Part shown: one piece after another, positions 37,012 to 39,489 of the stretch
Layout: every line of letters begins with the position of its first letter
How positions within the stretch are numbered: the stretch's first letter is position 1
DNA from: Bacillus sp. ISL-37
GTDB taxonomy: Bacteria; Bacillota; Bacilli; Bacillales; Cytobacillaceae
Direction of reading: 5' to 3'
NCBI RefSeq assembly: GCF_018613315.1
Contig: NZ_JAGGQL010000005.1
Span: 124,001-188,000, forward strand
DNA length: 64,000 nt
The notes under the pieces: model-generated
Database searches by the model: none
What the model was told of the DNA's origin: nothing
What the model saw: only the letters and a program-made list of their open reading frames with translations
Translations under genes and position numbers: made by a program

Positions 37012-37234
37012 TGTTTGCCTCCTTAAGCATGCTAGATTATTGATCCTTAAATCCTGATCTAGTTAATTATTTCGGCTTTCTGAGCATATATCCTTCTAAA
37101 AAAAGAATTTCAGTCTTTACTATTGGATAATTTGAGTTTACTTTCATTGTTTGCTACAGTTAAATTAAGGAGACTTAAACCTATCTAGATGTTGTTAATT
37201 AATCTAAGTATATAGCCGGGGAGTGTACATAAAA

Positions 37235-38077
37235 ATGGAATCAACTTTTAACCAAAGAGATGAAGTGACCGATTTCATTCAATCGAATAGGGAACTTTTC
37301 GAACAACACTTGTTATCAGAAGCAGTGAATGTAGCTTCGAAGATTAATGAGATTCTTCAAAAAGGGAATATCGACCTTTTAAAAAATGCTGAAAATTTAA
37401 TTGTCTACATAGTGGAGCAGCAAGAAGAGAATCTGGTTGCTTTTGCTGAACAAGAAGGGATCGCCTGGGCAGAACATTCGTTGACTGTTGCTTTCAAGCT
37501 GGAATGGATTCAGGCCATTCGCCGAACTTTGTGGCACTTCCTCAATGAATATGATCAAATGTATAACCGATTTTCTGACCGCGAGGAATTCTTCCAACTC
37601 GAAAAAAGGATCAATGACCGAGTTGACCAATTCCTGAATACCTTCTTCCTTACTTATACAAAGTACAAAGATGAACTGCTTAACTCACAGAGGCAATTGG
37701 TTGAACACTTATCCGTCCCTATTATCCCAGTCAGCGGTACTGTTGCTGTACTTCCTCTAATCGGTATGATGGATGATTACAGAATGCAGATTATCGAAGA
37801 GAAGGTCCTGATGGATATTTCAAAACTGAAGGTCCAAACATTAATTATGGATCTATCTGGGATCGCAGACATGGAAATGAACGTCATCTCCCATTTCCAA
37901 AAAGTATTGAGTGGCGTATCGATGATGGGTTCAAAAGCTGTCATTACTGGAATGCGCCCCGATCTTGTAAGAAAAATGATACATGCAGGAATCACTTTTG
38001 ACCAAAAGGCAGAAACCAAAGGTACGTTACAGCAAACACTGAGATCCTATCTGGATAACGAAGTAACAAAACAATGA
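37235..38077 (+). CDS. RsbR-type STAS-domain protein (stressosome paralogue)
   Basis: 280 residues from ATG 37235 (GGGGAG upstream; GTG 37223 touches the site). An N-terminal helical sensor-like domain (1-150) is joined to a C-terminal STAS domain (about 160-275) with Ile-Met-Asp-Leu-Ser-Gly-Ile and Ile-Thr-Gly-Met-Arg-Pro-Asp-Leu. In stressosome proteins two threonines in this domain are phosphorylated by RsbT. Here the positions by my alignment are Met (in Asp-Met-Glu-Met) and Lys (in Val-Arg-Lys-Met), so normal phospho-control looks lost. A role in sigma-B signalling is inference. Confidence 0.75.
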   Translation: MESTFNQRDEVTDFIQSNRELFEQHLLSEAVNVASKINEILQKGNIDLLKNAENLIVYIVEQQEENLVAFAEQEGIAWAEHSLTVAFKLEWIQAIRRTLWHFLNEYDQMYNRFSDREEFFQLEKRINDRVDQFLNTFFLTYTKYKDELLNSQRQLVEHLSVPIIPVSGTVAVLPLIGMMDDYRMQIIEEKVLMDISKLKVQTLIMDLSGIADMEMNVISHFQKVLSGVSMMGSKAVITGMRPDLVRKMIHAGITFDQKAETKGTLQQTLRSYLDNEVTKQ

Positions 38078-38117: not shown

Positions 38118-39452
38118 CTATAAAAATCTCTTGTCGAGCTCAGACACTAGTCTATTATTTTCTTCAATATCCTGATGAATCCCATCTATTTCGGAAGATA
38201 TATTCAATTCCTGTTGTTTGACTGAACTGATTTTCCGTTGCTGGGTTTCGTGCTGTTCCGTGATCTTTCGCAAACGGTCTGCCAGGGACATGCTGTCAGC
38301 CCTAATGGATAAGATACCAGATGAAACTTTTTCGAGCTCTTTATTTTGAGATTTCACCTTTGCGTCTATCTGCTGCATAAGGTCATCAAAGTCAGTGAAT
38401 GAAGAAAAACTTGAACTGATTTTGTTCTCTATTCCTTCTAATTGTGTCGATATATTTTGAGAAGCTTCTGCAGAGGCAGCCGCCAGCTTGCCAACTTCTT
38501 TTGCCACCACAGAAAATCCTTTACCGTGTTCACCTGCACGTGCCGCTTCTATGGAAGCATTTAAGGCCAGGATTTTCGTTTGTCCTGAAATCGATGAGAT
38601 CGTTGAGCTGATGCTGCCAATGGTTTTAGTTAAACTTACAAGTTCCTTTAACAATTCTGATGTTTGATTCATATGCTCGACAGCCTGCTGATTATCCTTT
38701 ATGACAGCAACAGAGCCCTCTGCTACTTCTTCAATTGCCCCGCTGTACGTGCTAATCTTTGATTCCATTTGTTCAAATACGGTAAAAAATTGGGATAGTG
38801 CTTCTTTATTTTCAGTGAGCTCGTTTTCCAATCCATTAATAGAAACTAGATTACGATTCACACTTTGTTTAATCGTCTGGGTGGATAAAACAATATCATT
38901 GAAGGTTTCTTTCATTGCACCAACGAATACGCCTGCCTGTCCTTGGTCATCTGCTACTTCTCCATCAGGACCTGGCTGATGGATTTCCTGGAGGATATTA
39001 AAAATTTCATCCAACGCTGGACGATCAAATTGCGAATCCCCGATATAGCTGTAGCGAATCACGTGGTTTCCATCCAAGACATAGGTGCTAGGTATGGCAA
39101 TCCGGAAACTGTCCCATTTTACAGGTACAAAAACCTCATATTGTTTAATCACTGTTCTCTTTTCATCAGACAGGATCGGAATCTTGATGCCTTCTGAATC
39201 AACGTAAGCCTGAATCCCCTTAATATTCTGTCCTGCAATTCCCAGGACTTGTATTCCCTTTTCTTTTAAAAGATCATATTGTTCATTCAGCTGGACCAGC
39301 TGAGTCCGGCAGTTTGGTCACCAAGTGCCTCTTAAGAAAACAATAATAACAGGCTGACCTGCGAAGTCTGATAAGCTGTATTTTGTATTATTCGTTCCGG
39401 GCAAAGCAAAATCTGGTGCTTGCTTGCCTACGTTTAAACCTCTATTAGCCAA
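38118..39452 (-). CDS. Selenocysteine-containing peroxiredoxin-domain chemoreceptor (soluble MCP), read through TGA
   Basis: 444 codons from TTG 39452 (AGAGGAG upstream) to the stop at 38118, with one in-frame TGA at 39320-39318, codon 45. Residues 6 to about 158 form an AhpC/TSA-like thioredoxin fold: [10 protein letters not shown], then Phe-Leu-Arg-Gly-Thr-Trp-U-Pro-Asn-Cys-Arg (redox motif UxxC, Cys48), then Ile-Pro-Ile-Leu-Ser-Asp-Glu. Residues 175-444 are a helical chemoreceptor signalling domain; the hairpin tip is near Glu302-Ala-Ala-Arg-Ala-Gly-Glu. There are no membrane helices. A standard call starts at GTG 39152 and loses the sensor. It should signal peroxide or redox state to CheA/CheW. 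A decayed gene is possible but unlikely given the TGA position, stem-loop and promoter. Confidence 0.8.
39287..39320 (-). promoter_or_regulatory. Candidate bacterial SECIS element after the TGA
   Basis: In the mRNA, UGA is followed after 14 nt by UCAGCUG, a GUC loop and CAGCUGA, a perfect 7-bp stem (39303-39287). The tip reads GGUC, the same apical tetranucleotide as the E. coli fdhF SECIS loop, here about two bases farther from UGA. Known bacterial SECIS elements lie at this distance and carry a conserved G in the loop. Confidence 0.65.
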
Positions 39453-39489
39453 AATAATCTCTCCTCTAACAGCATTGTGTCAAAGATTA

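Follow-up and report, generated by a model that had tools for sequence, protein, structure and literature searches.

We report that a gene of Bacillus sp. ISL-37 probably encodes a selenoprotein, in which selenocysteine (Sec) at residue 45 would sit in a soluble receptor combining a thioredoxin-fold sensor with an MCP signalling domain. The gene lies within a 64,000-nt stretch of contig NZ_JAGGQL010000005.1, called the window below. Its frame, 39452-38118 on the minus strand, comprises 444 codons and a TAG stop and is open save for one TGA at codon 45 (39320-39318), as the original prediction had read it, and a ribosome site does precede the TTG start (39452-39450). The features of the locus are:

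38118..39452, minus strand: full gene, an open frame with one TGA; ten full-length homologues have the same TGA.
39461..39467, minus strand: ribosome-binding site AGAGGAG, 8 nt before the TTG start.
39318..39320, minus strand: in-frame UGA, predicted Sec, residue 45 of W-U-P-N-C; the codon recurs in every full-length fusion and among standalone relatives, and the genome has Sec machinery.
39309..39311, minus strand: Cys48, the partner of Sec45 and the protein's only Cys, as in all ten fusions examined.
39287..39303, minus strand: predicted bacterial SECIS hairpin UCAGCUG-GUC-CAGCUGA, with conserved synonymous sites and paired changes, fitting published constraints and rare by chance.
38982..39431, minus strand: Prx-like/ResA-like thioredoxin-fold sensor domain, residues 8-157 (Pfam AhpC-TSA, 6e-32; AlphaFold2; Foldseek).
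38124..38942, minus strand: MCP signalling coiled-coil hairpin, residues 171-443, tip 308-310 (Pfam MCPsignal, 1.3e-25 at 254-400; a pair of long helices in a low-confidence model).

When translation is continued past the TGA, Pfam places AhpC-TSA over residues 8-134, which agrees with the earlier reading of the upstream part as a thioredoxin-fold start, followed by MCPsignal over residues 254-400 (90.7 bits against a cut-off of 34.6); an NCBIfam search of the read-through protein gave no model over its cut-off. A plain table-11 list of open reading frames contains only a 344-aa ORF (38118-39152) that begins at an internal GTG 100 codons into the long frame, so that routine annotation loses the sensor, as had been anticipated. 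Both the start position and a GGAG-type ribosome-binding site are conserved in relatives, the start being ATG in two of them (G225 and G081). The protein had been proposed to be membrane-free, and no segment hydrophobic enough for a membrane helix was found in the fusions examined.

Homologues were sought in 194 genomes of the family and 399 of the order. The family search returned nine further full-length fusions (63-95% identity) and the order search one more, from a different family (G225, 63% identity); Mesobacillus selenatarsenatis SF-1 and Bacillus sp. ISL-55 are among the named carriers. In each of the 11 full-length fusions, the TGA at codon 45 is the sole interruption of the frame ahead of its natural end; W-U-P-N-C, the UxxC in place of CxxC that had been pointed out at the TGA, is common to them all, the codon being kept as TGA and not Cys. 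Ten standalone relatives also carry TGA at this position, while the homologues with Cys there (WCPVC, in one case WCHSC; codon TGT in L075) are standalone. The family and order genomes yielded no intact fusion with Cys in this position, a plasmid search gave no fusion, and a phylum-wide sample of 399 genomes gave no further match at E <= 1e-25; among the 399 genomes of the order, the MCP half never occurred without the Sec-domain half at E <= 1e-26.

No decay is seen elsewhere in the frame. Codons 1-44 have a dN/dS of 0.11, codons 46-157 one of 0.07, the MCP half 0.08 and the linker 0.48; dS is saturated for some distant pairs, and close pairs likewise have dN well below dS outside the linker. 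Judged from these codon comparisons, purifying selection is strong on both sides of the TGA and in the MCP half; the linker is weakly conserved, and a signal path through it is putative.

A conserved SECIS-like hairpin, absent from the original prediction, provides what we consider independent support for predicted Sec insertion at codon 45, which we hold to be very likely. In the window, the hairpin has 7 bp with loop GUC (or 6 bp with loop GGUCC), lies 20-21 nt after the UGA and folds at -9.7 kcal/mol, within the published bSECIS constraints (stem 4-16 bp, loop 3-9 nt, G in the first two loop positions, 16-37 nt after the UGA, MFE at most -7.5; PMC13188914). Every UGA of the fusions is followed by the same hairpin sequence or a variant of it; L067 (-5.6) and L040 (-7.0) miss the energy limit in our folds, falling short on energy only. 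Synonymous difference is the lowest of the domain in six-codon windows starting at codons 50-56 (0.04-0.12 per comparable pair; mean 0.42). Among 19 distinct sequences, a set that includes standalone relatives at about 40% identity, both sides have changed in four of the seven pairs and five pairs (19-33 to 23-29) are never broken, with CAGCU/AGCUG becoming CAACU/AGUUG in L076 and CAGUU/AACUG in L071 and L073. None of 500 shuffles attained the covariation score; related sequences can exceed shuffles without structure, and we take covariation as supporting the predicted hairpin and not as proof of it. The hairpin bases also encode Q-L-V-Q-L, and codon choice could explain part of the pattern, although it is hard to square with paired synonymous changes. 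Such a hairpin is rare by chance: of the window's 2732 TGA trinucleotides, only 15 (0.55%) are followed by a comparable one with at least 7 bp.

The machinery whose presence had been proposed as a check is all there: the genome (4.74 Mb, 62 contigs) contains selA (563.1 bits), selB (357.7 bits), selD (395.4 bits) and a tRNA-Sec (Rfam, 67.1 bits, over cut-off) that lies on the window's own contig, ~72 kb from the window, and is confirmed by ARAGORN with anticodon tca (UCA). An Rfam scan of the window alone returned nothing. The selD gene (L018, G000:C61:152219-153145) has one in-frame TGA, and selenophosphate synthetase is itself probably a selenoprotein. Across 21 genomes of the genus, no link was found between loss of the gene and loss of Sec machinery: selB is over cut-off in 20, with or without the gene, and the remaining genome is a 66%-complete assembly. 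In one genus member, selB (G070:C232:20379-22237) is split into two and contains one TGA, which may reflect a frameshift or faulty assembly.

Modeled alone by AlphaFold2 on eight relatives, the sensor domain adopts a confident Prx-like fold (pLDDT 86, pTM 0.86). Foldseek finds this model closest to Bcp4 (TM 0.89), with AhpE also near; in sequence, ResA is about as close as archaeal PrxQ/Bcp. The label of peroxiredoxin given earlier therefore stands for the fold, on Pfam and Foldseek evidence, and fails at the active site: the PxxxT/SxxC peroxidatic motif was looked for in the sensor and is absent, RGTWUPNC standing instead, and we rejected a true peroxiredoxin on that ground. The PrxQ/Bcp peroxiredoxins (PDB 2cx3, 3hjp, 2ywn) share the fold (TM 0.80-0.89), but where they have PxxxT/SxxC this protein has RGTWUxxC, placing C48 on the Bcp peroxidatic Cys and U45 on the Ser/Thr of the motif, Ser in Bcp. 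In alignment with ResA (PDB 3c71, 1st9; match 1e-21), U45 takes the place of the N-terminal Cys of CxxC, ResA GTWCPxC aligning with GTWUPNC. ResA is Cys-containing, membrane-anchored and extracytoplasmic, whereas the protein described here is soluble and fused to an MCP domain. I-P-S-T (120-123) resembles the thioredoxin cis-proline loop. The sequence comparisons thus point to an active site of the ResA/thioredoxin-like UxxC thiol:disulfide type in a Prx-like fold, not a canonical peroxiredoxin, and peroxide is therefore only one possible input. PF00578 with UxxC describes the sensor domain, which shares fold family and motif with the Prx-like thiol:disulfide oxidoreductase selenoproteins (PF00578, UxxC/UxxU) that have been predicted with high confidence (PMC13188914); an MCP fusion of these is not described in that work, and the MCP domain sets the present protein apart.

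The full-length AlphaFold2 model is of low confidence (pLDDT 62, pTM 0.31) and was used for its helix pattern alone: two MCP helices of 139 and 133 residues (171-309 and 311-443) with a turn around 308-310. The 16-residue MCP tip, the CheA contact, is intact and identical in all fusions, and the genome encodes a CheA domain (H-kinase_dim, 60 bits, C55:303914). The strict methylation consensus [ASTG][ASTG]xx[EQ][EQ]xx[ASTG][ASTG] has no match in ten fusions; it is also absent from some MCPs, hence our term MCP-like receptor. On this evidence, we think it likely that the protein is a receptor signaling to CheA. Soluble (cytosolic) MCPs likewise have the signalling hairpin without a membrane segment, and among them we found no family with a Sec-containing sensor domain. 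CZB-domain McpA and Aer, like the proposed receptor, tie oxidants or redox state to the chemotaxis pathway, but they sense by a 3His-1Cys zinc site and an FAD-PAS domain, respectively, and neither uses a thioredoxin fold or Sec.

U45 and C48 are the only Sec/Cys residues of the protein, and the same holds for each of the ten fusions examined (G075 and G076, whose proteins are identical, count as one), making one U45-C48 selenenylsulfide the likely switch. The hairpin, some 20 nt past the UGA, would recruit SelB and tRNA-Sec, and these would insert Sec45 to yield a 444-residue soluble protein, with the N-terminal thioredoxin fold (UxxC, ResA/Prx-like) as sensor and the C-terminal coiled coil as MCP signalling domain. 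Hydroperoxides, or disulfides equilibrated with the thioredoxin pool, would oxidize Sec45, which would then bond to Cys48 as a selenenylsulfide; from the start of helix 46-57, the change may pass to the coiled coil of the receptor dimer and alter CheA activity, until a thioredoxin-type reductant resets the switch. That this single switch directly sets CheA activity in a receptor whose synthesis is gated by selenium, which would make it the first selenoprotein signalling receptor known to us, seems to us somewhat favored.

In Mesobacillus-genus genomes, the gene is flanked by an SNF2 helicase gene on one side and a convergent STAS gene on the other. The STAS-domain protein (37223-38077, plus strand) is a convergent neighbor kept across the genus, possibly a stress-signalling partner or merely a sharer of the location. 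The gene is dispensable, since among the 21 genus genomes, nine of which have the full fusion, it is absent from eight, decayed in two (G086 and G088, with pieces in its place) and lacks the MCP half in two (G079 and G081, with a standalone Sec domain there). The G079 protein (L098 5817-6347) ends in NDENNKLL, which matches the fusion end and suggests that this standalone domain probably arose when the MCP half was deleted internally; a moderately supported grouping in the sensor-domain tree unites the fusions with the G079 and G081 forms. The fusion has other neighbors in G164 and G225. In G225 (L091 4646-5749), a nitric oxide synthase oxygenase gene adjoins it, and that genome also holds one standalone Sec homologue and one Cys homologue. 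Decayed copies occur in Virgibacillus oceani (L026 3800-4420; TGC at codon 45, Tyr at 48, later stops) and in G296 (L068; TGA kept, plus other stops). Several families of the order have standalone UPNC redoxins of about 160-185 aa (L069-L074, L076, L077), predicted selenoproteins each with a UGA and a SECIS-like hairpin. The two searched against NCBIfam, L069 and L071, gave no model over cut-off, and such redoxins may be truncated in annotation.

A lone TGA could also come from a sequencing error or from recent mutation of a Cys codon to a stop, and Cys does occupy the position in distant standalone homologues and in the decayed Virgibacillus oceani copy; but eleven genomes share the TGA, under purifying selection, and we rejected an error or a pseudogene mutation, to which we assign a negligible chance. 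The UGA might otherwise be a real stop, or be read through by a near-cognate tRNA, with the MCP part made from the internal GTG that yields the 344-aa ORF and the upstream part left over or made as a separate short peptide. There is very little chance of this given how strongly the 44 codons ahead of the TGA are selected, the fixation of UGA at a Cys position, the SECIS hairpin and the Sec machinery; a start at residue 101 would, moreover, halve the thioredoxin fold.

Two further readings accept the selenoprotein and differ on its role. The protein could be an enzyme, a Sec oxidoreductase or peroxidase tethered by an MCP-like coiled coil to chemoreceptor arrays, where it would remove oxidants or repair disulfides. 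The many standalone UPNC relatives of the sensor domain and the weakly conserved linker are consistent with this, as are G079 and G081, which keep the Sec domain at the same locus without the MCP half and so suggest that it is useful alone; yet purifying selection on the MCP half is strong (dN/dS 0.08) and the CheA-contact tip is identical in all fusions, which makes a tethered enzyme unlikely. The receptor could instead chiefly report selenium, there being no receptor when selenium is short and the redox site being secondary. Because the UGA precedes the entire MCP half, full-length output requires Sec insertion, and one carrier, Mesobacillus selenatarsenatis SF-1, bears a name that alludes to selenate and arsenate; the strong selection on UxxC and on the whole fold, needless for gating alone, leaves this reading improbable. 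We retain the redox receptor as the preferred reading.

PF00578 UxxC selenoproteins and MCPs are already known, separately. Neither a selenoprotein chemoreceptor nor a PF00578-UxxC/MCP fusion was found in two prokaryotic-selenoprotein reviews (PMC13188914, PMC9312934), in NCBIfam or in the open-licence literature, and priority elsewhere is possible; in PMC13188914, a 2026 review of prokaryotic selenoproteins, the terms "chemotaxis," "methyl-accepting," "MCP" and "sensor" are absent. Gene callers stop at UGA, and the sensor half of a receptor family is thereby lost. A single pair, one Sec and one Cys, would make a clean redox switch that lends itself readily to testing. Prokaryotic selenoproteins known so far are mostly redox enzymes, and if our reading is true, Sec as a chemoreceptor switch would extend selenium biology to signal transduction.
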